Assembly: GCF_902779965.1 (NCBI RefSeq) | Contig: NZ_CACZDK010000042.1 | Location: forward strand, 1 to 37,166 | Origin: Fibrobacter succinogenes | GTDB lineage: Bacteria > Fibrobacterota > Fibrobacteria > Fibrobacterales > Fibrobacteraceae | Length of the DNA stretch: 37,166 nucleotides | Direction of reading: 5' to 3' | Shown here: piece after piece, positions 14,370 through 33,078 of the stretch | Position numbering within the stretch: position 1 is the first letter of the stretch | How the letters are laid out: each line of letters starts with the position of its first letter | The notes under the pieces: model-generated | Seen by the model: the letters and a program-made list of their open reading frames with translations, nothing else | Told to the model about the DNA's origin: nothing | Databases searched by the model: none | Made by a program: the position numbers and the translations under genes

Positions 14370-17300
14370 CTATTTGTTCACGGGTCTTCTGTAGCCAAAC
14401 GACTTCAAAAGCTGGTCACTAGACTTGATAACGGCATTCTTTTTCTTCTCGGCCTTGTCGAGGCTAACCGGCGGGAGCGTGCAGCGAAGCTTAGACGTCA
14501 TCTTGACTTCGGTCTTGAAGAGGTAAGCTCCAGTACCATAGAGGCGTCCTTTCTTCGTTCTCACGTCACCATTTTCATCCGGCTTCATTTCGAAGAAGAG
14601 CTTCAAGAGACCTGCTTCATTCACATAGTCCGGATCGTCAAGGTCGTAATCAAAGCTATAGAAATCCGAGAACGCGCCCGTATTCGTATAGACCCAGATA
14701 TTCACCTTAATCGTCGTCCAATAGAGGTTCATCTTGCTGTAATCCGACTTCAAGGATTCCTTGAACTCGTCCGTGCAGTACTTGTTAACGTAATCGTTCA
14801 CAGAAACCTTCTTACCATTAGCTGCATCCACGCCTTCCAGTGCGACCATGCCACCAGCGCTCACAATGTCGTCCAGCGTTGCCAGTCCGCCCATAGCGTT
14901 CACGACAGGTACACGAGCGTCAACCGCGAGTGTCGGTCCGAGGTGACCTTCCAATCCCGGATACGGTTCTTCGCCCGAGCCATCCTTAGCCTTACCCTTG
15001 ATACCAATAATCGCTTCTGTTTCGGAGTTTTTCTTGTAGTTGAAGAACGTCACGCTGTAGTTCTGGTCTTTCTTGGGCTTATGTTTCTTATCGTAATACT
15101 TCTCGATAGAGTCGCGATCCACGAGCGTTACCGGTTTTTCAACATCAATATTAATGTCCTTGACATTCTTCACCATGACAGTCACAGTATCACTCGATTC
15201 GTTACCGGCCTTGTCACGGAACACGCGAACAATCGTTTGTGAACCATTTTCAAGTCCCTGTACGCTAAGAGTATCTTGATCAACACCATCGACCGTCCAC
15301 TTGACAACTGTAAAATTAGACGTAAGCACTTCGCCATCATACGGAGATTCAATCTTTACGACAGGTCCCTTCTGATCAAGCACGATAAACACTTCTTTTC
15401 GAGAAGAGTTACCAAATTTGTTCACATAGGTATATGCTACGTTGTAACCAATGTTGCCATCACTATTCTTAGCGATCTTGCCCTTTTCGTCCAGGAAGTA
15501 CGAGACATCGACAGCATTGCCATTCTTATCGGTGTACGTGTATGATATTTTATATGTACCCGTTACATCATCGCCATCTGCAGAAAGCACAGATTCACTA
15601 TCGCTGAGCCCGGTCTTGAGCGTCACACGTTCACCCGTAGAAGCATCAGCATAATACGAAACTGTCACATCCTTGCCGCCAATTTTGACCGTGTAAGAAA
15701 CTTCGATAACCGCAATTTCCTTAGTCTTACCATCAGAAGTAACCACAGAACGCTTGACATCGTTACCCTTCTTATCGGTGTAATAGGTAACTGTAATGCG
15801 TTTGTTATTAACAACTTCTGTATAGGTATTCTTGTTGTAAGAACCGTTTTCAGGAACTGTAGTAATTCCCGAAGCAGGATCCTTTTTACGAGAGACCTTG
15901 GAATCGGCGATGTTCTTGATGTTCTTGAATTCATTAGACGAAACAGAAACCGTATCCAAATCCAAATTTACAACAAACGATTTTGTATAGTGAGAGGCGG
16001 TATCCTTGACCGTCACCTTAATATTGTTCTTCTTTTCGTTCACGTAAATGGCGGTATCGTTTTTTGTAGCCTTTTCAACGACCGTGTAAATGTTGTCTGC
16101 AGTTACATCGTCACCATCCGCAGATACCGTCACAATAGGAGCAGCATCGCTATAGCAGATAACCACTGTATCGGAGCCCGCAGCATTCTTTGCCGGATCC
16201 TTGAACGTCTTGATAATGGTATTGCACCCTGGCTTCAACGTATCAGTACTGTTTTTCAACTTGTTATCGGCAGTCCATTCAACATCTACAATTTTATCGT
16301 TCACGAAAATAGAATCCGGCTTGAGATACACAGAATCCTTGGTTTCGACACGCGTGATTTCGACAACAGACTTTTCATAGACATCCTTCACTTTCACAAC
16401 AACCTTCTTGGTCGAAGTAAGCGTTTTATCATTCTTGTCGGTAACACGAACGTTAATCACGTAAATAGAATCCGATTCATAGTCAACCGACTTGATGAGA
16501 ATAACATCACCGTTAGATTGCACGGAGAAGATTTCATTATTGTCTGCATTTTCGTAAACGTTATTACGGAAATCAGGATTCTTGGTATCAGGATCATCCT
16601 TGTCGGTCTTAACTGTTGCAAACGTTTTTCTAAGTTCCTGATTTTCCGAGACATAAATAGTGTCCACGAGAATAGACGGAGCTTCGTTCACATCAACAAC
16701 ATTAATCGTCACCGTCGTATCAGAATAGCCGTCATGTTCATCCCTAACGCGAACCTTGAAGGAATAGGAGGAAGTCTTTTCGTAATCCAGCTTCGACAGC
16801 ACAGTGAATTTACCCGTTTTAGGATCCAGATGGAATTCATTTGTCTCATGGCCTTCTTTTTCACCATTCATGATGAAATAATTGAAAACGATATCAGGAC
16901 CATCAATATCAATCCCTTCAAGATTCTTTTTGAGAACGCTTCCGACAGGTTCATTTTCGGGAACCGTGAATACAGTTTCCTTCAAGAACGGAGGTTCATT
17001 CACGTTACGGAGATAAACGGTAACCTTACCCGTTGCAGTAAGATCATTCGGTTTACCAGCATCGTGGATAACGATGTTCAATTCGTATACATGTTCTTCT
17101 GTTTCATAGTCAAATGCACGTGTCGTTTTAAGGACACCCGTATCTTCGTCAATATAGAAGCCTTTTTCGTCGCAGTCCGTGCATTCAAATTTGTTATTGC
17201 GGAACTTCGATGCGGTATCAAGGTCATCAAACGTGAGCGTCCCCACGGTAACACCTTTCATATGTTCATTGAACTCAAGTGTCTTGGTCGGTTCAACAAA

Positions 17301-20270
17301 GATGGGGTTTTCGTTCACGTCGTTCAGTTTAATGACAACAGAAGCTGTAGCAGTTTGCACCACCTGGTCCGTAGCACCCGATTCATCCGACGCAACAACC
17401 TTCAAATTGTACGTTCCCTTGGTTTCATGGTCAAGGACTGCGCCATCCGCAACAGTAATAACACCTGTAGTCGGGTCAATTACGAACGAATTAGTCTCAT
17501 CAATCAAGCTGTAAGTAATCGTAGCATTAAGCTGCGTTGTCGTTGCCTTGATTGCATGATCCAGCTTAACCTTTGTGTCCTTGACGGAATTTTCATCAAC
17601 CGTTCCATTATAGACCGCAAACTCAAACTTTGGACCGTCTTCGACATCCGTTACAAGGACCTTAAAGAGCATATCACTGTAAAGGTCTGGGTAAACATAG
17701 TCACCACTAGCATCCACATTCGCATCACGAACTCGCACTTCAATTTCATATTCATTCTTCACTTCGTAATCGAGTACAACGCCAGCCTTCGGATAAATCA
17801 GGCCACCAGATGTAATGCCAAAGAATTCTTTATCGCCACCAATGATTTCATATTTATTATTGAGGAATGTCTGATTTTGTGTAATACTAATATTGTCATA
17901 ATCAGCAGACGTAACCTCATTGGACGAGAACGAAGCATCTTCTGCAATTTCGATAACATTCGTTGCATTTGTAAAGTACGGCTTTTCGTTAACGTCTGTA
18001 ACGCTCACATTGAATTTCTGTCGAGAGCAAAGCAAGAAATTGGATGTCGAAGCTCTTGTATCACAGACTTCTACAACAAGATCATGCTTTGTACCCGAAG
18101 TTTTCCATTCTTCGTAATCAAACGGATCAGTAGTATTTTTCATACTCACGATACCCGACGTAAGCCCGATATCGAACAAATCCATAGCGGTTCCATCAAC
18201 AATTTCAAATACGAATGAATCGCCTTCACCGTCGTCGGCCTTAACTTGCCCAGCTATAGCCTTTGTAGAATTTTCAGGGACCGCAAGTTTTATCTTATCT
18301 AACTCGATAAAGTACGGCGGTTTGTTGTCGTCATCGATCAGCTTCACAAGAAGACCGCCATCAAAACGGCCTCCTGTAATTGTAGCGCCGTTCAAGTTCG
18401 TTATCTTGAACAACATGTATTCATCATTTTCAAATTGACCATCCAACTTGACCTTAATACGCGCCATAGTTGCTTGGGTCGGATTACGAGTGTTCTTGGC
18501 AATAACGACATGTCCGCTTTCGCCTTTCGAGCAAAGCGGCATTGGATATGTCTTATCGTCCAAATCGAGATCTTCAGGTTCTGCAAAGTCGCGTCCGCTC
18601 AAACTTGCCGGAATATCGAGATCTATACCAAAGAACGCCAAGCAGTAATCAAAGGTCACATTGGTTCGAGCGGTATCCGTCAGGTAGAAGTTCATATCGT
18701 ACCAAACGGTTTCGCTTTCCTTAAACTTGTCCGAAGAGAATATATCGGCCTTGATTTCAGCAGAGTTAAACGGTACGTAATGGAATTCACCGTTAAAGTC
18801 AGATTCAAACTTGAGCTTTTGACCTGCAATCAGCTGGCCAGCAATACTGAGATGGTCTGCAATGAGAAAATCACCTGTTGTAATAAAGGTTCCCTGAAAT
18901 TTAGCACCAACACTTTTGTCACCATCTGTTCCTATAAAAGGCTTCCATTCAACATTGGCCGTCGTATAGAACAAAAGATTACCAGCATAATTCGAATCTG
19001 CTACTGGCGTTATGTTAAGCTTATCTAGATTATACCATACGTCATTACCATTTCCATCATTTTCAATCCAATATGGTTTATCTTCAGATTCAATCGTTTT
19101 TCCATTTGAATAATATTCAGGTTCATTCAGATTTTCCCACATTTGTGTCGTATTATTCCAAGTGGCATTGTCATTCACGATGGCAACTTGAATTCTCAAA
19201 TTGTTGGCAGAATTTTCAAAATTAAAGCCATCCCTAGAGAAAATACGGGTCAAACGCCCTGTTTTTTTATTCGCATTATGTTTATTCGAAGGCATCAAAA
19301 TATAAATAATTTCGCCCTTCGATCCACCGGCCTTAACATTTTCTACATACTTGTCATACCAAACTTTTTTGGGACTTTGATTCAAATCTTCTTTTGTTAT
19401 GGGAGGGACATGAACAAAGACAATCTTTCCAGAATTTCCACTAACATTTATAGCAGGCTCCCAATTTGTAATATTTTCCATTAAAGGAACGGAAAGTTGC
19501 TTTTCGGGTTTAGGAACATCTTCAGGGCAATTGTCAAAATGGCCATCAAGACCGGTGCCATCATTATTGAATAAATCAGGCAAACCAGGAACTATTACAT
19601 CTGAACTGCCCGGAACTGGCATATCTTTGTCCCAGTCTGCATAAATTTTTCCACCACCCTTATGAACGTTCGTGATAAAACGTTTTGTCACATCAACAGC
19701 ATCACCTTCACGATGTTCATTTTCATTTCTATTGGGATTTGTAAAGCGATCTGGACCAGGAAAATAAATTTGCCCATCAAAGCAATATATGCCCTCATAC
19801 TTCGCATTTGGAGCATCATACCAATTTGTAAGCGTCAACCATCCAGCACGTACAGGCCCTTTCAACAAAGTATCACCATCAGCACCACCACCATAATAAC
19901 CAAAATCAAGATCATTACCCGAAATGATAGGACCACCTAACGTATGTCCACCATTATAGAACATGACCTTGCCTTTCGCCGTTCCGGTATAGCCGCTCGG
20001 TTCAGCAATTCTAAAGCCACCTTTATTAAAAATAACGGAATCAGTACCCCAGAGCTTATACTTCATAAGCTCGTTCCACAGGCGCTGGTTTTCTGTTTCA
20101 TCCGTAACGGCGGCACCATCCTTTTCGAAATAAAGAGGACTTAGCAAAACGGTGTCACGTTCAACGGCGGGTTCATCTGACGCATCCTGAGCCAAAGTCG
20201 GAGTGGCGAGTCCAAGCGCCGCCGCGACAGTACTCAATACTGTTCTCAAAAACAAATTTCCTTTTTCCAT
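14370..20270 (-). CDS. giant cadherin-repeat surface protein (1966 aa), paralogue
   Basis: A tandem paralogue of the 2920-residue protein. The start chosen is ATG 20270, preceded by a GGGG ribosome site. An upstream in-frame GTG at 20297 has no such site and would add nine residues before the signal peptide (1-27, cleavage TLA/Q). The N-terminal domain (about 30-520) shares YKLWGTD, GGPIISG, KGPVRAG and AGNLLFY-type motifs with the neighbour. A Calx-beta-like stretch (about 530-660, DGQFENDEYMLFKI) follows. About six cadherin-like domains come next, marked by DVNEKP, DVEDGP, DVNENP, NVNEPP and DVNEAP. From about 1298 to the end runs the shared C-terminal module, closing in GYRRPVNK without the Lys-rich tail. 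A surface adhesin role is inferred. Confidence 0.85.
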   Translation of the reverse strand: MEKGNLFLRTVLSTVAAALGLATPTLAQDASDEPAVERDTVLLSPLYFEKDGAAVTDETENQRLWNELMKYKLWGTDSVIFNKGGFRIAEPSGYTGTAKGKVMFYNGGHTLGGPIISGNDLDFGYYGGGADGDTLLKGPVRAGWLTLTNWYDAPNAKYEGIYCFDGQIYFPGPDRFTNPNRNENEHREGDAVDVTKRFITNVHKGGGKIYADWDKDMPVPGSSDVIVPGLPDLFNNDGTGLDGHFDNCPEDVPKPEKQLSVPLMENITNWEPAINVSGNSGKIVFVHVPPITKEDLNQSPKKVWYDKYVENVKAGGSKGEIIYILMPSNKHNANKKTGRLTRIFSRDGFNFENSANNLRIQVAIVNDNATWNNTTQMWENLNEPEYYSNGKTIESEDKPYWIENDGNGNDVWYNLDKLNITPVADSNYAGNLLFYTTANVEWKPFIGTDGDKSVGAKFQGTFITTGDFLIADHLSIAGQLIAGQKLKFESDFNGEFHYVPFNSAEIKADIFSSDKFKESETVWYDMNFYLTDTARTNVTFDYCLAFFGIDLDIPASLSGRDFAEPEDLDLDDKTYPMPLCSKGESGHVVIAKNTRNPTQATMARIKVKLDGQFENDEYMLFKITNLNGATITGGRFDGGLLVKLIDDDNKPPYFIELDKIKLAVPENSTKAIAGQVKADDGEGDSFVFEIVDGTAMDLFDIGLTSGIVSMKNTTDPFDYEEWKTSGTKHDLVVEVCDTRASTSNFLLCSRQKFNVSVTDVNEKPYFTNATNVIEIAEDASFSSNEVTSADYDNISITQNQTFLNNKYEIIGGDKEFFGITSGGLIYPKAGVVLDYEVKNEYEIEVRVRDANVDASGDYVYPDLYSDMLFKVLVTDVEDGPKFEFAVYNGTVDENSVKDTKVKLDHAIKATTTQLNATITYSLIDETNSFVIDPTTGVITVADGAVLDHETKGTYNLKVVASDESGATDQVVQTATASVVIKLNDVNENPIFVEPTKTLEFNEHMKGVTVGTLTFDDLDTASKFRNNKFECTDCDEKGFYIDEDTGVLKTTRAFDYETEEHVYELNIVIHDAGKPNDLTATGKVTVYLRNVNEPPFLKETVFTVPENEPVGSVLKKNLEGIDIDGPDIVFNYFIMNGEKEGHETNEFHLDPKTGKFTVLSKLDYEKTSSYSFKVRVRDEHDGYSDTTVTINVVDVNEAPSILVDTIYVSENQELRKTFATVKTDKDDPDTKNPDFRNNVYENADNNEIFSVQSNGDVILIKSVDYESDSIYVINVRVTDKNDKTLTSTKKVVVKVKDVYEKSVVEITRVETKDSVYLKPDSIFVNDKIVDVEWTADNKLKNSTDTLKPGCNTIIKTFKDPAKNAAGSDTVVICYSDAAPIVTVSADGDDVTADNIYTVVEKATKNDTAIYVNEKKNNIKVTVKDTASHYTKSFVVNLDLDTVSVSSNEFKNIKNIADSKVSRKKDPASGITTVPENGSYNKNTYTEVVNNKRITVTYYTDKKGNDVKRSVVTSDGKTKEIAVIEVSYTVKIGGKDVTVSYYADASTGERVTLKTGLSDSESVLSADGDDVTGTYKISYTYTDKNGNAVDVSYFLDEKGKIAKNSDGNIGYNVAYTYVNKFGNSSRKEVFIVLDQKGPVVKIESPYDGEVLTSNFTVVKWTVDGVDQDTLSVQGLENGSQTIVRVFRDKAGNESSDTVTVMVKNVKDINIDVEKPVTLVDRDSIEKYYDKKHKPKKDQNYSVTFFNYKKNSETEAIIGIKGKAKDGSGEEPYPGLEGHLGPTLAVDARVPVVNAMGGLATLDDIVSAGGMVALEGVDAANGKKVSVNDYVNKYCTDEFKESLKSDYSKMNLYWTTIKVNIWVYTNTGAFSDFYSFDYDLDDPDYVNEAGLLKLFFEMKPDENGDVRTKKGRLYGTGAYLFKTEVKMTSKLRCTLPPVSLDKAEKKKNAVIKSSDQLLKSFGYRRPVNK
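16375..18320 (-). repeat. tandem cadherin-like repeats inside the smaller giant gene
   Basis: About six protein-level cadherin-like repeats, with linkers of the DVNExP form and L-D-Y-E/F-D-Y-E motifs, between the Calx-beta-like stretch and the shared C-terminal module. Boundaries are approximate. The lower repeat count accounts for most of the size difference from the neighbouring paralogue. Confidence 0.75.
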
Positions 20271-20315
20271 AATAGACCCCAACAAAAAAAGATCCACACC
20301 CTAAACACTCATTAT

Positions 20316-20490: not shown

Positions 20491-20590
20491 GACCACTAGG
20501 CCCTGCGCAATGATTATTTGCGGGCAACTCGCCAGGGCGAAAGCAGCAACGGACTTGCGGATCTTTATGTGCTCAGGTAGCCTAGTACTT
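20491..20590 (+). ncRNA. ffs: signal recognition particle RNA (small bacterial 4.5S type)
   Basis: A 100-base RNA that folds as one long hairpin. Pairings found by eye: ACTAGG (20495-20500) with CCTAGT (20581-20586); CCTG with CAGG; CGCA with TGTG; GCGGG with CTTGC. The domain IV signature CAGG...AGCA (symmetric loop of the Ffh-binding helix) flanks an apical stem GC/GC capped by GAAA. It scaffolds Ffh for co-translational membrane targeting. It has its own promoter and terminator. The apical stem appears to be two base pairs, against three in the E. coli RNA. Length, fold, signature and flanking signals make the call strong. A covariance-model search with the small bacterial SRP model would settle it. 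Confidence 0.87.
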
Positions 20591-20695: not shown

Positions 20696-21322
20696 ATGAT
20701 TCTTTGGACGATTCGACACACCAAGCCTTACAACCCTAACGATGTTTGCTACGGAAGATTGGACTTCGACGTTTCCCCCACATTCGAAGACGAATCCGAC
20801 AAGGCTCTCAAGGCTCTTACCGAAGCAAACGCAAAACCGACGCGGTTGTTTTCGAGTCCGCTTATCCGCTGCACCAAGTTTGCGGGTAAAGCATCCAAGT
20901 TGCTTGGTCTGCCCGTCGAAAAAGAACCGGCAATTATCGAATTGAATTTTGGCACGTGGGAAGGGCAAAAGCTGACCGCAGTGCCCCGTTCGGAAATGCA
21001 CGCCTGGACAAGCGACCTCCGCGGGTTCAGGTTCCCCAATGGCGAAAATTTTTACGACATTGACGAACGCGCCGGAAAGTTCTTGGACACGCTCCCGGAC
21101 GACGGCGAGTTCCTTTGCATTACACATGCAGGCGTGATTGCCGCACTGCAACATTCCCGTTGCGGACTACCGGACGAGGTATTTGTCGAAGGGATGTTCT
21201 CTTACGCCATGGTGTCACGTTTTGAATTTACTCGTAACGAAGACGGACACTACCGCGGGACGTTCACGAAGATTCATGACGGCATTCCGATGCCAAAGCT
21301 TAAGATGGAATCTAAAGTTTAG
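20696..21322 (+). CDS. histidine phosphatase family protein (CobC/PGM-like)
   Basis: A 208-residue protein of the phosphoglycerate-mutase-like histidine phosphatase superfamily, which uses a phosphohistidine intermediate. Catalytic-pocket residues are visible: R7-H8 in IRHTKP (RHT in place of the common RHG), R58 in SSPLIRC, E82 in IIELNFGTWEG and H144 in ITHAGVI. The early CYGRLDFDV and the overall length fit the CobC-like (alpha-ribazole phosphatase) branch, but no cobamide genes are nearby, so the substrate is open. The start ATG has no Shine-Dalgarno. The bases just before it are a low-complexity run of CCTATA/CCTACA units also found at 27211-27243. No partner gene lies alongside, and the spacer after it holds dispersed repeats. 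Confidence 0.85.
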   Translation: MILWTIRHTKPYNPNDVCYGRLDFDVSPTFEDESDKALKALTEANAKPTRLFSSPLIRCTKFAGKASKLLGLPVEKEPAIIELNFGTWEGQKLTAVPRSEMHAWTSDLRGFRFPNGENFYDIDERAGKFLDTLPDDGEFLCITHAGVIAALQHSRCGLPDEVFVEGMFSYAMVSRFEFTRNEDGHYRGTFTKIHDGIPMPKLKMESKV

Positions 21323-21390
21323 TTGGCAAAGCCTAGTTGGCAGAACTTAGAGCTTAGAACTTAGATTGCACAAAACGAGATTTAACTGGA

Positions 21391-21472
21391 TGGGGCTAAA
21401 GCCCCAACTCTTTGGCTCGGTTATAAAAATGAGCAAACTCATTTTTGCAACGCTCGCCTTCTGAGTTGTCTT
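21391..21472 (+). repeat. dispersed structured repeat, copy A
   Basis: Contains GGGGCT/AGCCCC, then CAACTCTTTGGCTCGGTTAT, a central hairpin AAAAATGAG-CAAA-CTCATTTTT (21425-21446), then GCAACGCTCGCCTTCTGAG and GAGTTGTCTT. CAACTC (21405-21410) can pair with GAGTTG (21463-21468) to close the whole element. A second copy lies at 22864-22941 with a different central hairpin. No coding potential is seen. Confidence 0.75.
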
Positions 21473-21483
21473 CGCGGAGTTTA

Positions 21484-21516
21484 TCCCGGACTCCATTCCG
21501 GGACTCAGGATGACGA
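21484..21516. repeat. REP-like hairpin element
   Basis: CCCGG and CCGGG form a hairpin around ACTCCATT and are followed by the shared tail CAGGATGACGAGAG. It directly follows dispersed repeat copy A, just as a GAATGACGAGAG tail follows copy B. Confidence 0.5.
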
Positions 21517-21543
21517 GAGGGCGATTCCCGGTCGGAGCCTGCT

Positions 21544-22641
21544 TTAAAAGTCGAACGAGAAGACGGCTTGGGCGCCGCCTTCGAAATTCGGGAGGAGCGC
21601 CATATGCAAGGGGTTATCGAAATCGCTCAGGAGAGCATCGACAGCGGCATCGGCGATAGAGTACAAGTAAATTAACACACCACCCCAAATGTAAGTGTTA
21701 CGATTTTTGCGGTAGTATGTTACACGTTCCTTGATGCGGTCGTATTCCTCGGACTTCGGATTTTCCTGTTCGACTAAGTGTTTACGGTCAAGGTAATAAT
21801 TGACCATGTTCTGAGACGTAGAAACGCTCACAATAGCTCCCAAGATACCCATGTAGACAAGCCCGGCCTTGCCAAAATCACGGTTGAAAATTTGACCGCC
21901 ACCCGGCAAAATAGCCCAAAGGAGCGCCTTCTTCATTTCGCGATATTCCGTACTTCGGTAGTTGTTATTGTACCAAATGCCAAACGTGTCGAACATGCCA
22001 TAAAGGTGAACGCCGATAAGCCAGGCGACTTCGGCCTTGCGCACGTCTTCTTGTTCCATTTTTTTGTCGCTCTGCGCACGGACGCGTTCGAGGAATTCAA
22101 GGCGTTTTGAATGGTACATGGCGATGCTATCACGAGGGCCATTCATGATTTTTGACGTAAAATAACCGACGGAATCCTGGAAAAGTTGCGCGCGATCCAA
22201 GAGTCGATCTCTTTGGAACGACCTGTTAAAAAAGATGTCGTAAATCAGCAAACCTTCGATACCCGTCAAAAATCCGCCACGCACATAATGTTCCGTATAA
22301 TACTGGCCACCACCGGGAAGCAAGCTAAAAAGCATGGCGTATTTAAGCGAATTGCGCTTTGTAGGGATATCCCATTCGTTCACGGGGAGCGTATCAATAG
22401 CCACGATGCCGGTTTTGCCTCTTAAAAGCGGAGTCGAGGAAACTTGAAAACTTTCTTCGCTAGGCGCTTCGGGAGCGTCATCGTCGTCGTCATCGGATTC
22501 CGTTGCAACATCCACAGCGCTGTGGGTAGAAACCGGTACACTCCCCTGAACCGAGTCTGGGACTGTAACCGGCGCCGCAGTCTCTGCAAAAAGAGACGCA
22601 CAAAGCACCAAAAGCGCCATTATGAAGGTTTTTGCTGTCAT
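21544..22641 (-). CDS. DUF5683-type envelope protein, duplicated motif
   Basis: A 365-residue protein with signal peptide 1-19 (cleavage LFA), an acidic low-complexity stretch of Asp and Glu around 50-62, and two copies of the DUF5683 hallmark: LLPGGGQYYTEHY (about 107-119) and AILPGGGQIFNRDF (about 242-255). Each is followed by hydrophobic segments that could be membrane helices. A charged helical region joins them. The protein ends in Phe (FSFDF), as many outer-membrane proteins do. Function is unknown for the family. No ribosome site precedes ATG 22641. A TATATTCG element ends six bases before the ATG, so the mRNA may be leaderless. Confidence 0.75.
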   Translation of the reverse strand: MTAKTFIMALLVLCASLFAETAAPVTVPDSVQGSVPVSTHSAVDVATESDDDDDDAPEAPSEESFQVSSTPLLRGKTGIVAIDTLPVNEWDIPTKRNSLKYAMLFSLLPGGGQYYTEHYVRGGFLTGIEGLLIYDIFFNRSFQRDRLLDRAQLFQDSVGYFTSKIMNGPRDSIAMYHSKRLEFLERVRAQSDKKMEQEDVRKAEVAWLIGVHLYGMFDTFGIWYNNNYRSTEYREMKKALLWAILPGGGQIFNRDFGKAGLVYMGILGAIVSVSTSQNMVNYYLDRKHLVEQENPKSEEYDRIKERVTYYRKNRNTYIWGGVLIYLYSIADAAVDALLSDFDNPLHMALLPNFEGGAQAVFSFDF

Positions 22642-22647
22642 TGAGGG

Positions 22648-22655
22648 CGAATATA
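22648..22655 (-). promoter_or_regulatory. -7-type element abutting the DUF5683 gene start
   Basis: TATATTCG on the minus strand ends six bases before ATG 22641. If transcription starts at the usual distance, the first base of the mRNA is at or next to the start codon. No purine-rich ribosome site exists. The -35 region is weak. Confidence 0.5.
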
Positions 22656-22722
22656 GAAAAAGATTATTATAAAGTCGTAATAAGATGTTTAAAGTTATTT
22701 AATTTTGCGTCACATGATGGAG

Positions 22723-22771
22723 ATTCCCGGTTCCTCCGACTACGCTCAGGACAGGCTCCGCTGGGAATGAC
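22723..22771. repeat. REP-like palindrome ATTCCC...GGGAATGAC
   Basis: ATTCCC (22723-22728) pairs with GGGAAT (22763-22768), followed by GAC. The interior also carries CTCCGACTACGCTCAGGA, related to the element at 20623. Confidence 0.6.
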
Positions 22772-22863
22772 ATGAGTACGAAAGCGAACTTTCACATTAC
22801 CGAGGCGAACAGGTTATACGTAGACGCAATGACAAATGAATAAGATTCAAGACTTGACTAGAT

Positions 22864-22941
22864 TGGGCTGAAGCCCGCAACTCTTAAGCTCGGTTATGAC
22901 AAGACATGCCTTGTCGCAACTCTCGCCTACTGAGTTGTCTT
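22864..22941 (+). repeat. dispersed structured repeat, copy B
   Basis: Matches copy A (21391-21472) through GGGCT-AAGCCC, AACTCTT-GCTCGGTTAT, GCAAC-CTCGCCT-CTGAGTTGTCTT. The central hairpin differs: GACAAG (22898-22903), loop ACATGC, CTTGTC (22910-22915). CAACTC (22878-22883) can pair with GAGTTG (22932-22937). The flanks are conserved while the stem keeps pairing with different bases. Confidence 0.75.
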
Positions 22942-23058
22942 AGCTTCGCTCAGAATGACGAGAGGGGCCGCAAAGTGACTATGCGGCGAAAAAAATTTCA
23001 AGTTTTTATAAAAATGTCTGTTTTTGACATTTAATGTTTTTAACTTATGGGTGTAATG

Positions 23059-23589
23059 ATGAACGAAACAATCAATATCGAACACGAAATTCACGAACTG
23101 GCCATAAAGATCAAAGAAGAACTGATCAAGCGCGGAGAAATGATGGCAACAGCGGAATCCTGCACAGGCGGGCTTATCGCATCGAGCATTGTCAACGAGC
23201 CGGGTTCTTCTGCGATTTTCAAGGGCGGAATCGTTGCCTACCAGAACGAAATCAAGCATGACATGCTGGGGGTAAGCGATGAAATCCTCGAGAAATACGG
23301 TGCTGTCAGCGAACAGACCGTAAAAGCCATGGCCGAAGGCGCCCGCAAAGCATTCCATTGCGAATGGGCGGTTGCCACTTCGGGAATTGCGGGGCCAACC
23401 GGTGCAGAACCGGGAAAACCCGTCGGTACAGTATGGATGTGTGTCGCCAATAGTTTGCAAAATGAAGCCTTTTGCGAGATTTTTGCAGGAAATCGTGGAC
23501 AAATCCGTGAAAAAAGCGTGTATAAGATAATGAGCAAGCTTCTTTTTTTACTGAATAGCCAAAAAAGCACTTGCACAAAAGTTCACTAA
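23059..23589 (+). CDS. pncC: nicotinamide-nucleotide amidohydrolase (CinA C-terminal family)
   Basis: A protein of about 176 residues made only of the CinA C-terminal domain. It deamidates nicotinamide mononucleotide in NAD recycling. The family motifs are clear: [12 protein letters not shown] (active-site Ser), [46 protein letters not shown]. In-frame ATGs at 23047, 23056 and 23059 are possible. The last is chosen because GGGTG (23049-23053) lies five bases before it, while nothing purine-rich precedes 23047. It lies 41 bases upstream of recA in the same direction, a gene order also common in other bacteria (cinA-recA). Confidence 0.9.
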
Positions 23590-28711: not shown

Positions 28712-28743
28712 AGTTTGCCGCATCGGAAACGCTGCGGCAAACT
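28712..28743. other. perfect 11-base hairpin between secG and tRNA-Leu
   Basis: AGTTTGCCGCA (28712-28722) pairs fully with TGCGGCAAACT (28733-28743) around a ten-base loop. No T-run follows on either strand, so it is not a standard intrinsic terminator. The tRNA starts eight bases later, without a visible promoter of its own. It may be an RNA processing site or an attenuated terminator. Confidence 0.6.
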
Positions 28744-28750
28744 AAGCTCT

Positions 28751-28834
28751 GCGGTCGTGGTGGAATTGGTAGACACGCTAGCTTGAGGTGCTAGTGGGAG
28801 CAATCTCATGACAGTTCAAGTCTGTCCGACCGCA
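28751..28834 (+). tRNA. tRNA-Leu(GAG), copy 1
   Basis: An 84-base type II tRNA: acceptor GCGGTCG/CGACCGC, D arm with AATTGGTAGAC, anticodon stem CTAGC/GCTAG with loop TTGAGGT (anticodon GAG), long variable arm, and T arm with GTTCAAGTC. Discriminator A; CCA is not encoded. It is identical to the copies at 30513 and 32958. No TAnnTTTG promoter precedes this copy, so it may depend on transcription from the tpiA-secG unit. A terminator follows. Confidence 0.96.
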
Positions 28835-28842
28835 TGAAGAAG

Positions 28843-28869
28843 TCCGTTCTCGAAAGAGAGCGGATTTTT
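28843..28869 (+). terminator. terminator of tRNA-Leu copy 1
   Basis: TCCGTTCTC (28843-28851) and GAGAGCGGA (28856-28864) with loop GAAA, followed by TTTTTG. Confidence 0.9.
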
Positions 28870-29049
28870 GTTTTGGTTGTTGATCATTGGTCAATGGTCT
28901 TTGGTTGTTGGTTAAGACGTTAAATATACCCGCGGATTAATTTTATACAAATTAAATAAATAGTTTTTAAAACCAAATCATGACAAGTATAGACGATCAT
29001 TTGCGGTAAGGGTTGCTAAATTTTAATTGGAATTACATCAAGGATTTTT

Positions 29050-30411
29050 ATGCAGAACACACTCGTTTCTCCTGTTGGTATTTTAGGCTTTGGCGTCGAA
29101 GGCCAGAGCACGTTGCGTTACCTTTTCCGCGAAGGCGTCAAGGATATCGTCGTGATGGACAAGAACCCGGTGAACTTGCCGGAAGTCCCTGCTGGTGTGA
29201 ATGTCAAGGTCAGCAGCGGCGAGAACTATCTGGACGGACTGAAGGACTGCGTGACGGTCGTGCGTTCGGCAGGCGTTTACCCGATGAGCAAGGAGCTGTT
29301 CCACTTCCAGATGAACGGCGGCCTCATGACAAGCCAGATTCAGTTATTTTTAGAACAAACTCGTTCTGCAAAAGTGGTCGGCGTAACGGGCACACTCGGG
29401 AAGGGTTCCACAGTGAGCATGATAAGCCACATTTTGGACAAGTGCGGTAAGACAAACGCTATTGGCGGAAACTTTGGCGTGCCGGCATTGGACTTGCTCG
29501 AAGACGAGACTCCCGAGCGCATAAGCATCTTGGAACTTTCGAGTTTCCAACTCATGACGTTGTCTGTATCGCCGGATGTGGGCGTAGTATTGCGCGTTTC
29601 GACAGAGCACTTGGATTGGCATAAGAGCGTTGAAGAATACCGTGACGCAAAGGCAAATTTGGTTCGTTGGCAAAAGCGCGATGGTGCTTGCGTTTATCTG
29701 AAAGACGCGAAACCGACCGCAAAAATTGCTGCAGAAAGCCCGGCCAAGACAAAGTATGCCGTAAGCCTCGCAGACGGTCCTAGTGCTGGTGATGGTGATG
29801 CCGTGATTGACGGAGCAACACTTACAATTGACGGTGTAACTTTGTACCTCTCGGACTGCAAAGTACGCGGCATTTACCAGCTCGAAAACATGGCCGCAGC
29901 AACACTCGCCTGCAAAGCTTTGGGAATTGGCGTTGCCGAAGCATTCGAAGCACTCAAGAGCTACGAAACGCTCCCCTTCCGCATGGAATTCAAGGGCGAA
30001 AAGAACGGCATTGAATTTTACAACGACAGCTACGCCACACGCCCAGATGCAACGATTGCGGCAACCGGCAGCATGAAGCGTCCGTTTGCCTTGATTCTCG
30101 GCGGTTCTGAAAAGAACGCGGACTTCACGGAGCTTTCAGAGATTCTCGTAAAGCATCGCCCGAACTTGAAGCGCGTGGCACTGATCGGAGCAACCGCTGA
30201 ACGCATGCTCGCTGACTTGAAAAAGGCAGGCGTGGACGAAGCAGGAATCAAGACTGCCATCTTCCCCACACTCGAAGAAGCTTTTGCAGACAGTTTGAAC
30301 ATCGGCGAAGGCGGAACGGTCATCATGAGCCCCGCATGCGCGAGCTTTGGACTGTTCAAGAACTACAAAGTCCGCGGACAGGTGTTTGACAAGCTAGTTG
30401 AAGGGGTATAA
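29050..30411 (+). CDS. murD: UDP-N-acetylmuramoylalanine--D-glutamate ligase
   Basis: A 453-residue Mur ligase that adds D-Glu to UDP-MurNAc-L-Ala in the cytoplasm. The N-terminal Rossmann domain starts VGILGFGVEGQS. The central ATPase domain has the P-loop VTGTLGKGST, the MurD-specific ILELSSFQL, EHLDWH, and DAKANLVRWQ with the lysine expected to be carbamylated. The C-terminal domain has NDSYATRPDAT and SPACASFGLFKNYKVRG. The P-loop carries GKGS as in folylpolyglutamate synthases, where MurD usually has GK[ST]T, and the usual DSKAT motif is DSYAT. AAGGA precedes the ATG. The gene stands alone, outside any cell-wall cluster. MurD is the best fit, but a MurD-like ligase with altered specificity is possible. 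Confidence 0.9.
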   Translation: MQNTLVSPVGILGFGVEGQSTLRYLFREGVKDIVVMDKNPVNLPEVPAGVNVKVSSGENYLDGLKDCVTVVRSAGVYPMSKELFHFQMNGGLMTSQIQLFLEQTRSAKVVGVTGTLGKGSTVSMISHILDKCGKTNAIGGNFGVPALDLLEDETPERISILELSSFQLMTLSVSPDVGVVLRVSTEHLDWHKSVEEYRDAKANLVRWQKRDGACVYLKDAKPTAKIAAESPAKTKYAVSLADGPSAGDGDAVIDGATLTIDGVTLYLSDCKVRGIYQLENMAAATLACKALGIGVAEAFEALKSYETLPFRMEFKGEKNGIEFYNDSYATRPDATIAATGSMKRPFALILGGSEKNADFTELSEILVKHRPNLKRVALIGATAERMLADLKKAGVDEAGIKTAIFPTLEEAFADSLNIGEGGTVIMSPACASFGLFKNYKVRGQVFDKLVEGV

Positions 30412-30459
30412 GGCAAAGCCCTCGCGCAAAAAAAATTGATAAAAATGCGCGATGTCCCC

Positions 30460-30490
30460 TTTACAAGCGGAAGGTTTTATACTAAATTTG
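30460..30490 (+). promoter_or_regulatory. promoter of tRNA-Leu copy 2
   Basis: TTTACA (30460-30465), 17 bases, TAAATTTG (30483-30490). The tRNA starts 23 bases downstream, the same distance as in copy 3. Confidence 0.75.
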
Positions 30491-30493
30491 TTG

Positions 30494-30600
30494 CCGTTCC
30501 GCTAAGGACCACGCGGTCGTGGTGGAATTGGTAGACACGCTAGCTTGAGGTGCTAGTGGGAGCAATCTCATGACAGTTCAAGTCTGTCCGACCGCAGAAA
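30494..30600 (+). repeat. 107-base direct repeat including tRNA-Leu copy 2
   Basis: CCGTTCCGCTAAGGAC plus ACG leader, the tRNA and the first bases after it are repeated at 32939-33045, with a single C/T difference in the leader. The two copies flank the GH5 gene. Confidence 0.85.
30513..30596 (+). tRNA. tRNA-Leu(GAG), copy 2
   Basis: Identical over 84 bases to the copy at 28751-28834 (anticodon GAG, long variable arm, CCA not encoded). It has its own promoter and terminator, so it is a single-gene unit between murD and the GH5 gene. Confidence 0.97.
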
Positions 30601-30629
30601 AAGACTCAGTGAAAACTGAGTCTTTTTTG
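30601..30629 (+). terminator. terminator of tRNA-Leu copy 2
   Basis: AAGACTCAGT (30601-30610) and ACTGAGTCTT (30615-30624) with loop GAAA, followed by TTTT. Confidence 0.92.
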
Positions 30630-30663
30630 TTTCTCGCATGGAATCAAGCATAAAATCCACTCT

Positions 30664-30700
30664 ATAAAAAAGGAACCCCGATAATTTCCCGAGGTTCCTT
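30664..30700 (-). terminator. terminator of the GH5 gene
   Basis: On the minus strand GGAACCTCG (30698-30690) pairs with CGGGGTTCC (30680-30672), one T-G pair, followed by a run of T residues. It lies just after the GH5 stop codon. Confidence 0.85.
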
Positions 30701-30722
30701 GGTATGATTTACGAAATGCCGA

Positions 30723-32681
30723 TTACTTTACGACAACAAAACCCTTCTCGAAAGCGCCTTCGCCTAAGCGAATTCTATTTTCGCCTTTAGACAAACGCAC
30801 CGTCTTTGAAGTAAGAACCTTGCCAAGCGCGTCAGTCACGACAAACTTGCGCACGCAATTCCGATCGGAGACCACCGTGAAATTGCCGAAACCTTCATCC
30901 CGGATGACGAATCCACGGGAGAAATTAGCCCTGCGAGCAGGAATCAAGCCCGAAGGCGTTTCACTATAAGGCAAGAGTTCCAGCTTGGTCACCGCCCCAT
31001 CTTTATTGGCAAGGCCGGAATTAAAGGAATAAAGGGTATCCGCAGTACCGTCTGCCTTGTTGAACGCAATATAGTCTATGGCGACAGAGCCCTTGAAATA
31101 CTGAAGGTAAGACTGAATACCAATGAAGACAATCTTCTTGGGATTGTAACTGATAAGCGCCGTTGCCGAATCCGCGATGTTTTGGGATAGCGGAACTTTA
31201 TATTCATGCCATTTGCCCCAAACTGGGTCCTTGCCCCCCAGGATAGAGAATTCTCGCCACTGCCATTCCGCCTTTTCATCGGAGGACATCGTAACGACAT
31301 TGAATCCGGTGTAGCCGTACTTGCCATCGCTAGACGTTGTCCCCGAAATGTTCGCCTTAATGGTAATGGATGTGTATGGAGTAATATCGGACTTGACGAC
31401 ATCAAAACTGATTTGTCCGTACGTAGAAGAGTCCCCCTTGGCAGCCTCGGTCGCAAAGTAGTCGTAAGTAGCCACAAGCATTTTATTGGTCTCGGCGCCC
31501 TTGGTAAGCTCCGGAAGGCCATAAGCGGTGCGGATGGCGTTCATCACTGGGTAATCAAAGACCGTATAGTCCGCCGTAGAAATCGTCGTCATGGTACCCG
31601 GTCCCGTTCCACCGGTTTCCCAGGTGATGGGAATCATTCCGCGATCTTTGGCGGCCTTCGCTACATATCCGTAGAACTGGGCGCGCCCCTTGATGTGCAG
31701 TTCCAAATCGGCCCCGGAGAGAATATTAGAACGGCTCATCGCCCCAAATTCACCGATAACCACAGGGATACCCTTGGAGGTGAACTTTTCCTTCATCTTG
31801 TCGAAGTTTTCATCTACGAATTCCTTGCCGCACCACGTAGCATTGCGTTCCGGATCTGTCGTGGAAAGGTAGTCACCCCAATAGTAGCTCGCCTTGCCCC
31901 AATCAGCATCCCCATCCATCAAAGTAAAAGTGTAAGGATAGAAATGGACTTCAGCCATCAAACGGTCCGAAATTTTATCGGTCGGCATCACCATCTTGCT
32001 GTACGCGAGATCAAAGGATGTACTCGCCGCCTGGATAATCAAGGAACGACTAGCGTTGTTTCCGCCCGTCTCGCGAACGGCATCCACAAATGTCTGATGG
32101 TAAAGAAGAAGAGTCTGATGGGCTTCGTCGCCCGCCTGATCGTTTACGTCAGGTTCGTTCGCGCTTGCAAAAAGGAGATGCTCGTCGTATTCCTTAAAGG
32201 CTGTCGCGATTTGCGTCCAAAAGGCTTTCTGACGGGCGTTCACACGATCCTTGGTGGCGGCATCCACTTTATCGATATGCTTTTCGAGCCAGCCAAAATC
32301 CCAGTGAATGTTGATGATGGTATAGAGTCCAGCATTGACGCAAAGATCCACAACCGTTTTCACGGAATCCATCCAACTTTGGTGAATAACGTTGTTCACA
32401 GTGTCGGCATGGGCATACCAAGAAACTGGAATGCGGACTGTGGAATAGCCAGCATTTTTGATGGCCGTGATAAATTCCTTGTTCGGGTACTTGCCACCCC
32501 ACGCTTCAGGACCGGCCGATGTGATAACACCTGTATCCGTGTTGCCGGAGATGGCCTCCATGGTGTTTCCGATATTGATGCCAAAGCCCATTTTGGCGGC
32601 AAGGTCCTTGGCGGTGGGAAGTTCCGCAAAAGCGGATTCGCCTAGAAAAAAAAGGGGAAGAAGAAAACTTCTTATATTCAT
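30723..32681 (-). CDS. secreted GH5 endoglucanase with C-terminal CBM-like and sorting domains
   Basis: A 652-residue exported glycoside hydrolase. The signal peptide is 1-19 (SAFA/E). The GH5 domain (about 25-395) opens with GFGINIGNTME, as in the GH5_4-like group, and shows NIHWD (H126), the acid/base Glu176 in FASANEPD, H246 in EVHFYPY, the nucleophile Glu311 in VVIGEFGA, and W354 in ITWETGG. Residues about 400-560 form a beta-sandwich typical of a carbohydrate-binding module, perhaps CBM11-like. The last 75 or so residues (KFVVTDALGKVLTS, GENRIRL, KGFVVVK) resemble type IX secretion sorting domains. Cellulose or beta-glucan attack is inferred. ATG 32681 is preceded by GGAG at six bases; upstream in-frame ATGs lack a signal peptide start. 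Nothing shows regulation beyond a TATATTTG element. Confidence 0.9.
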   Translation of the reverse strand: MNIRSFLLPLFFLGESAFAELPTAKDLAAKMGFGINIGNTMEAISGNTDTGVITSAGPEAWGGKYPNKEFITAIKNAGYSTVRIPVSWYAHADTVNNVIHQSWMDSVKTVVDLCVNAGLYTIINIHWDFGWLEKHIDKVDAATKDRVNARQKAFWTQIATAFKEYDEHLLFASANEPDVNDQAGDEAHQTLLLYHQTFVDAVRETGGNNASRSLIIQAASTSFDLAYSKMVMPTDKISDRLMAEVHFYPYTFTLMDGDADWGKASYYWGDYLSTTDPERNATWCGKEFVDENFDKMKEKFTSKGIPVVIGEFGAMSRSNILSGADLELHIKGRAQFYGYVAKAAKDRGMIPITWETGGTGPGTMTTISTADYTVFDYPVMNAIRTAYGLPELTKGAETNKMLVATYDYFATEAAKGDSSTYGQISFDVVKSDITPYTSITIKANISGTTSSDGKYGYTGFNVVTMSSDEKAEWQWREFSILGGKDPVWGKWHEYKVPLSQNIADSATALISYNPKKIVFIGIQSYLQYFKGSVAIDYIAFNKADGTADTLYSFNSGLANKDGAVTKLELLPYSETPSGLIPARRANFSRGFVIRDEGFGNFTVVSDRNCVRKFVVTDALGKVLTSKTVRLSKGENRIRLGEGAFEKGFVVVK

Positions 32682-32732
32682 CCGATACTCCATTTTGATA
32701 CAATCAATACGCTTATTCGCGTATATCGAAAA

Positions 32733-32740
32733 CAAATATA
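32733..32740 (-). promoter_or_regulatory. -7-type element of the GH5 gene
   Basis: TATATTTG on the minus strand, 52 bases upstream of ATG 32681. The -35 region is AT-rich without a clear hexamer. Confidence 0.5.
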
Positions 32741-32904
32741 CTTTTTTGAAAAATTTTAGCTATAATTATTTAATTTGACATATTGACAATTTATCCATCA
32801 AGATTTAAGACACTTTTAATTTTTTTCAAAGACAGGGCAAAACGAAAATAAAAGACCGAGGTGACACCCTCGGAAAAAAAATTTCAATTATTTTTGAATT
32901 TGAG

Positions 32905-32935
32905 TTTCCAAAATCAAAAAAAATTACTATCTTTG
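32905..32935 (+). promoter_or_regulatory. promoter of tRNA-Leu copy 3
   Basis: TTTCCA (32905-32910), 17 bases, TATCTTTG (32928-32935), 23 bases before the tRNA. The spacing equals that in front of copy 2. Confidence 0.7.
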
Positions 32936-32938
32936 CAA

Positions 32939-33045
32939 CCGTTCCGCTAAGGACTACGCGGTCGTGGTGGAATTGGTAGACACGCTAGCTTGAGGTGCTA
33001 GTGGGAGCAATCTCATGACAGTTCAAGTCTGTCCGACCGCAGAAA
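32939..33045 (+). repeat. 107-base direct repeat including tRNA-Leu copy 3
   Basis: Second copy of the leader-tRNA repeat at 30494-30600, with one base difference. The promoters upstream and the terminators downstream differ between copies. Confidence 0.85.
32958..33041 (+). tRNA. tRNA-Leu(GAG), copy 3
   Basis: Identical over 84 bases to the copies at 28751 and 30513. It has its own promoter and a bidirectional terminator shared with the convergent GH43 gene. Confidence 0.97.
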
Positions 33046-33078
33046 AGAATCCAACCTTAAAGGCTGGATTCTTTTTTT
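33046..33078. terminator. bidirectional terminator, tRNA-Leu copy 3 and GH43
   Basis: AGAATCCAACC (33046-33056) and GGCTGGATTCT (33062-33072) with one mismatch. Seven T residues follow on the plus strand and TTTTCT on the minus strand. Confidence 0.88.

Follow-up and report, generated by a model that had tools for sequence, protein, structure and literature searches.

What kind of element occupies the spacers on both sides of a DUF5683 gene in the window, that is, the whole stretch of 37,166 nucleotides of Fibrobacter succinogenes DNA analysed here? The initial annotation reported two copies of a dispersed element and offered three readings: a mobile hairpin element, a small RNA family or a protein-binding site. 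Both copies are present, at 21391-21472 and 22864-22941, and their central stems (AAAAATGAG/CTCATTTTT in the first, GACAAG/CTTGTC in the second) differ in sequence while pairing in each, with CAACTC/GAGTTG as the closing stem of both. The GGGCT-AGCCC match reported as shared is common to both copies, but it forms a separate hairpin beside the closing stem, so that the unit consists of two adjacent hairpins. Likewise, the segments described as conserved flanks, GCTCGGTTAT and GCAAC-CTCGCC, are conserved, but they are themselves paired (G-Y-Y/R-R-C and GSC/GSC) and covarying.

Folded as RNA, the minus strands of elements 1 and 2 gave z-scores of -5.2 and -4.4 against shuffles. For element 2 the minus strand folded better than the other strand (-31.0 versus -25.3 kcal/mol), and for element 1 the two were nearly equal (-31.3 on the minus strand, -30.6 on the other). 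Overall, the element is better supported on the window's minus strand than on the plus strand. Read on this strand, the unit consists of an outer arm (T), a core hairpin (A), the inverse-complement arm (T') and a second hairpin (B), and in many copies T is repeated once more after B (T-A-T'-B-T).

Element 1 (21392-21468, minus strand) is a unit of about 77 nt, CAACTC-core-GAGTTG-GGGGCTTTAGCCCC, delimited by the empty site of sister species with an uncertainty of about one base. Its hairpin A (21414-21460), AAGGCGAGCGTTGC-AAAAATGAG-TTTG-CTCATTTTT-ATAACCGAGCC, was matched by covariance model R1 with 71.5 bits (E=4.8e-17). The sequence and the family-wide test of the outer stem place T (CAACTC) at 21463-21468 and T' (GAGTTG) at 21405-21410, and sequence and folding place hairpin B, GGGGCTTTAGCCCC, at 21392-21405, all on the minus strand. 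Element 2 (22864-22937, minus strand), CAACTC-core-GAGTTG-GGGCTTCAGCCC, is supported by its sequence, by folding and by an orthologous gap without it in four close relatives; its core, with the stem GACAAG/CTTGTC, lies at 22887-22929 on the same strand (43.9 bits, E=8.2e-9).

The neighbouring genes encode a histidine phosphatase superfamily protein (20696-21322, plus strand; Pfam PF00300), the DUF5683 protein itself (21544-22641, minus strand; PF18935) and a CinA C-terminal domain protein (23047-23589, plus strand; PF02464), the last with a recA-like gene, named from its sequence, downstream at 23571. Elsewhere the window carries the bacterial small SRP RNA (20494-20590; Rfam RF00169) and three tRNA-Leu(GAG) genes that all point the same way (28718-33046, with spacings of 1762 and 2445 bases), each inside a 122-nt repeat, the repeats being 75-95% alike. 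An open frame of 742 amino acids (15990-18218, plus strand), which overlaps a large cadherin-like gene (14370-20297, minus strand) in antisense, is probably no gene.

Pairing in the core and the outer stem

A blast search with the first copy gave 30 matches in its own genome (E <= 6.5e-4), which, read side by side, share a common core and vary in the centre with pairing kept; the covariance model of the core raised the count to 145. The core alignment contained 21 minus-strand cores, padded with N, and defined a hairpin of 17 pairs with the RNA consensus AAGSCGAGNGYYGC-[variable stem]CUUG-AURRCCGAGSC. From the base upward its order is GSC, tandem G.A, G-C, a bulged N, G-Y-Y, G.U, a C.A mismatch, the variable stem and a CUUG-type loop. 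Among the 21 cores, 13 of the 17 pairs changed on both sides and 96.8% of the cells were paired (76.3% after shuffling). The covariation check proposed in the initial annotation was then extended to 79 distinct sequences from other genomes, outside the model: 14 of the 17 pairs changed on both sides, 96.8% of the cells were again paired against 74.2% in shuffles, and double-change cells numbered 310 against 94.5. Shifting the partners by 1-3 columns left 18-44% paired. The effect size leans upward because this alignment was fitted to the model, though the shuffled and shifted controls are still far off. Unpaired centres or a lack of further copies had been named as evidence against the element, and neither was found.

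The irregular parts of the core are the tandem G.A mismatches, a bulge and the G.U and C.A. All of these except the bulge are nearly fixed while the neighbouring pairs vary, which suggests that the irregular core is read by something. A protein-binding site, one of the options first considered, could look like such a combination of conserved mismatches and a bulge. Part of the covariation can stem from template switching during replication rather than from selection (PMC8794818); switching of this kind may help to preserve the pairing of the stems, and its role could be larger than that.

The outer stem varies between copies while its pairing persists. Among 243 distinct copies, for most of which the unit boundaries are not fixed, the outer helix reached at least 7 bp in 61, against about 3.4 expected when partners were permuted, and the 101 copies with at least 6 bp contained 61 different helices; besides CAACTC/GAGTTG the arms include CAAATGC/GCATTTG, ATTTAGT/ACTAAAT, TTGCCC/GGGCAA and others. 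The loop GCTTGC occurred in 121 of these copies. In 183 of the 243, a perfect hairpin with a stem of 5 bp or more lay no more than 75 nt 3' of the core, for example GGGGCTTTAGCCCC or GACGCCGAAGGCGTC, most commonly with the loop C-GAA-G. A direct repeat of T of at least 8 nt, a possible target-site duplication, followed downstream in 33 of the 243 copies (about 2 expected); element 1 has no direct repeat beyond 1 base. A miniature transposon with conserved terminal inverted repeats was rejected, the outer stem differing between copies, and so was an intrinsic terminator: in the copies read by eye hairpin B is followed by ATCCAGT, AAA and the like, with no U-run.

Distribution and insertion sites

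The 145 model matches lie in a draft assembly of 4.09 Mb in 76 contigs. All 37 Fibrobacter genomes searched carried at least 10 matches, and across every Fibrobacter genome examined the number of copies runs from 10 to 145. Outside the genus, 23 genomes from the same order, class or phylum yielded no match. With an exact pattern, all but one of the matches listed among GTDB genome contigs had Fibrobacter or Fibrobacterales-type titles; the one apparent exception, from Aurantimonadaceae (L194), reached a score of only 23.8 bits, and we attribute it to chance. The core pattern was absent from viral contigs. The element is thus peculiar to Fibrobacter among the genomes searched. No relevant match was found in Rfam at the gathering and E-value thresholds, and the literature on Fibrobacter repeats contained no description of the hairpin family; these DNA insertions of about 75 bases are apparently undescribed in Rfam and the literature searched. 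One gene-poor region of the same genome (contig C19, about 31.8-39.8 kb; L112) holds five copies together with at least two parS-like TTTCACGTGAAAC sites, and possibly lies near the replication origin.

On the minus strand, element 1 is flanked by GAAGA on the left and ATCCAGT on the right. In two sister species (G004 and G014) the orthologous gap reads GAAGAATCCAGT and GAAGGATCCAGT, in which GAAGA/ATCCAGT and GAAGG/ATCCAGT, respectively, are joined without interruption. The interrupted sequence is itself a repeat that starts with CGTCAT and ends with ATCCAGT. Its left part lies at 21382-21391 (TTAACTGGAT) and its right part at 21469-21515 (TCTTC...TCAGGATGACG; CGTCATCCTGA... on the minus strand), neither with an assigned strand, and the uninterrupted form, ACTGGAT-CTTC...TCAGGATGACG, stands in L290 and L291. 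The CGTC tag, the AT/AT and the CCA tail are as described for CGTC-tagged REPs (PMC3733652). The uninterrupted host repeat at the orthologous place in both sister species shows that element 1, a segment of about 77 bp, was cleanly inserted into a different dispersed repeat, one that is CGTC-REP-like. Such CGTCAT...ATCCAGT repeats, fitting the published description, occur at 21382-21515 in the window and at many other loci of this genome; Fibrobacterota is absent from the five phyla listed for CGTC repeats (PMC3733652).

Element 2 has no counterpart at the orthologous place in its four close relatives G027, G014, G006 and G019, and G004 carries a different copy there in the opposite orientation. 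All of these comparisons are between species, not within one, so that loss by deletion could account for some of the empty sites.

The positions relative to genes were determined with a simple gene caller of our own, and the gene names at stop-codon sites were read from sequence. About 129 of the 145 copies lie outside predicted genes. Within 150 nt, 94 gene-3' and 37 gene-5' neighbourhoods were counted (p=7e-7), not all of them independent on account of tandem arrays. Relative to the gene on the 3' count, 55 copies were sense and 39 antisense, with no significant preference (p=0.12). This strand distribution, together with the Rfam result, does not support the small RNA option in the sense of a trans-acting gene. 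The option of a mobile hairpin element is supported: copies are scattered through the genome and confined to one genus, orthologous sites can be filled or empty, the element occurs inside another repeat, and its arrays contain repeated target sequence.

The family is, in our judgement, probably a REP-like, non-autonomous mobile DNA element that prefers the 3' sides of genes and whose mobiliser is supplied in trans, because the copies are dispersed, nested, variably present and without a gene of their own, and a Y1 transposase is absent from this genome. The unit would spread as a folded single strand, for instance on the lagging-strand template; its conserved mismatched core would be recognised by a protein supplied in trans; and it would insert beside a target able to pair with T', often with duplication of that target.

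Gene ends and alternative origins

Ten sense copies in the own genome adjoin a stop codon. The genes concerned include those for enolase, ribosomal protein L9, rubrerythrin and pyrophosphatase, core genes whose 3' ends are altered by the element, as well as guaA, gatA and yicC. Behind a stop codon the element would become a 3' untranslated hairpin of the mRNA, with possible effects on translation or on the stability of the transcript, like those of enterobacterial REPs close to stop codons. E. coli REPs within 15 nt of a stop codon are reported to stall ribosomes, according to the work cited in PMC12306157, and by analogy stop-codon copies in Fibrobacter may exert a cis effect of this type.

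These positions raise the possibility that the hairpin is a cis-acting RNA structure of mRNA 3' ends, such as a stability element, a processing site or a protein-bound structure, selected site by site. The CUUG loop, the tandem G.A and the nearly invariant G.U are RNA-like features, the copies are commoner 3' than 5' of genes, and the guaA copy is kept in G014. The element behind the pyrophosphatase stop codon is old and retained in a six-species clade; such retained positions also fit a cis function. However, the strand preference at gene 3' ends is not significant, the full element is missing at many orthologous stop codons of the genus, and some copies stand 5' of a gene, as element 2 does, or within a reading frame (C24:1169). 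We regard this explanation as possible, but not as the probable one. The intragenic copy (L122) and its counterparts (L215, L201 and L168) are contained in the open reading frame of an SNF2-helicase-like gene; the linker in which they lie is variable and has other repeats in related species.

Species of the genus differ on the 3' side of the rubrerythrin gene: the element may be absent, single or multiple, and where present it runs from the gene end (T) through core A, the inverse complement (T') and hairpin B to a second T. Filled and empty states were likewise found behind the pyrophosphatase and yicC genes, with relic heads (TAAGGCGAG...) in further species. In another Fibrobacter clade a different hairpin repeat, TAAGACCGC(T/G)CG..., starts exactly at the rubrerythrin stop codon (L330, L340, L342, L344, L345 and L347). 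Similarity to the local gene end is seen in T, T' and the second T at several loci, as in G000 (TTACT..AGTAA..ATTACTAA) and G006 (TTTCT..AGAAA..ATTTCTAA); in G034 ACATCGCATAA is repeated exactly, and in G027 a perfect inverse copy covers 11 nt of that species' own yicC end, against at most 8 nt for the ends of other species. That T' and the second T were copied from the local gene end at some loci is a lead, not a result. Across all species the match of T' to the local gene end averaged, with versus without an element, 5.5 versus 5.3, 4.9 versus 5.2 and 5.4 versus 5.3 nt at the three loci, and with so weak an average signal gene-end copying is kept as a rival only.

In one form of this rival, hairpin-primed (snap-back) synthesis or template switching makes the unit without a transposase: A primes the copying of T into T' and B primes that of T' into T, giving T-A-T'-B-T. 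The resemblances at the G000, G006, G034 and G027 loci agree with it, as does the reported creation and upkeep of hairpins by template switching (PMC8794818). We nevertheless consider it unlikely, since the locus-by-locus signal is weak on average, the first arrival of A and B at a new site is left unexplained, element 1 was inserted with its own T and without copied target, and the conserved mismatches persist although template switching would be expected to remove them. A second form, a self-adapting insertion in which A and B serve as foldback primers, the outer stem being copied from the target and the target copied again after B, appears improbable; if true, it would mean that a short element spreads, and builds arrays behind stop codons, without a transposase or with the assistance of template switching.

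For the preferred reading, a mobile element mobilised in trans, a difficulty is that no mobiliser gene was found in the own genome by searches for Y1 transposases, reverse transcriptases and tyrosine recombinases. No IS200/RAYT-type Y1 transposase (PF01797) was detected in this genome with its 145 copies, and the mobiliser is not a transposase of this type encoded in the assembly. Y1 transposases are present in 11 of 38 Fibrobacter genomes and absent from 26 of the 37 others, several of them near-complete; past mobilisation by such an enzyme may therefore have occurred. An origin as a miniature IS200/IS605-type derivative, or as a REP mobilised by a RAYT, would account for hairpin units that are intergenic, high in copy number and possibly paired with their target, but with the Y1 gene so often absent and no GTAG tag in the element we give this origin little credence. 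The single reverse transcriptase found (L412; C28:7958-8653) adjoins a repeated variable-protein C-terminus and reads as part of a diversity-generating retroelement, which makes it an unlikely mobiliser. Integron attC-like recombination sites share a folded imperfect hairpin, GTT/AAC boxes and a variable tip with the element, but are a most improbable origin, as no cassette arrays were seen, the closest integrases in a Phage_integrase search of the genome were two Xer-like proteins (305 and 309 amino acids) and two others, and GTT/AAC is merely the paired G-Y-Y/R-R-C step, which varies to GCC/GGC and GAT/ATC.

Comparison with known palindromic repeats

The analysis defines a structured repeat family for an entire genus of gut bacteria that are major degraders of fibre, with a two-part anatomy, an outer stem whose sequence differs between sites while it still pairs, a repeated gene end and insertion right behind stop codons. 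This anatomy makes the spread of palindromic repeats without a known transposase directly testable.

One described system, for which no dedicated transposase is known, is that of the CGTC-tagged REPs, which have a CGTC tag, a stem of 8-9 bp, a loop of 4-5 and a CCA tail (PMC3733652). As in these, the Fibrobacter element is short, palindromic, high in copy number and mostly intergenic, with some copies in genes. In contrast to their single 8-9 bp hairpin, it is about 75 nt long with two hairpins, a core with tandem G.A and a bulge, and a variable outer stem, and it lacks both the CGTC tag and the CCA tail; it is the interrupted host repeat that has CGTCAT...ATCCAGT. With the GTAG REPs and REPINs the element shares dispersed hairpins, clusters and a location of some copies near stop codons. 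It differs from them in the absence of GTAG, the units beginning with CAACTC or TAAGGCGAG and ending with hairpin B, in the absence of a RAYT (PF01797) from its own genome, and in the arrangement of its arrays, which are head-to-tail T-A-T'-B units and not the inverted pairs of REPINs.

The Rickettsia palindromic elements are likewise repeats able to sit in reading frames, as the Fibrobacter copy does in the SNF2-helicase-like gene, but no sequence relation was seen and the Fibrobacter element is mostly intergenic. The BOX elements of pneumococcus are built of modular units with a repeatable part that forms hairpins; judged by description, the Fibrobacter unit resembles them in this modular hairpin design, while the modules themselves differ.
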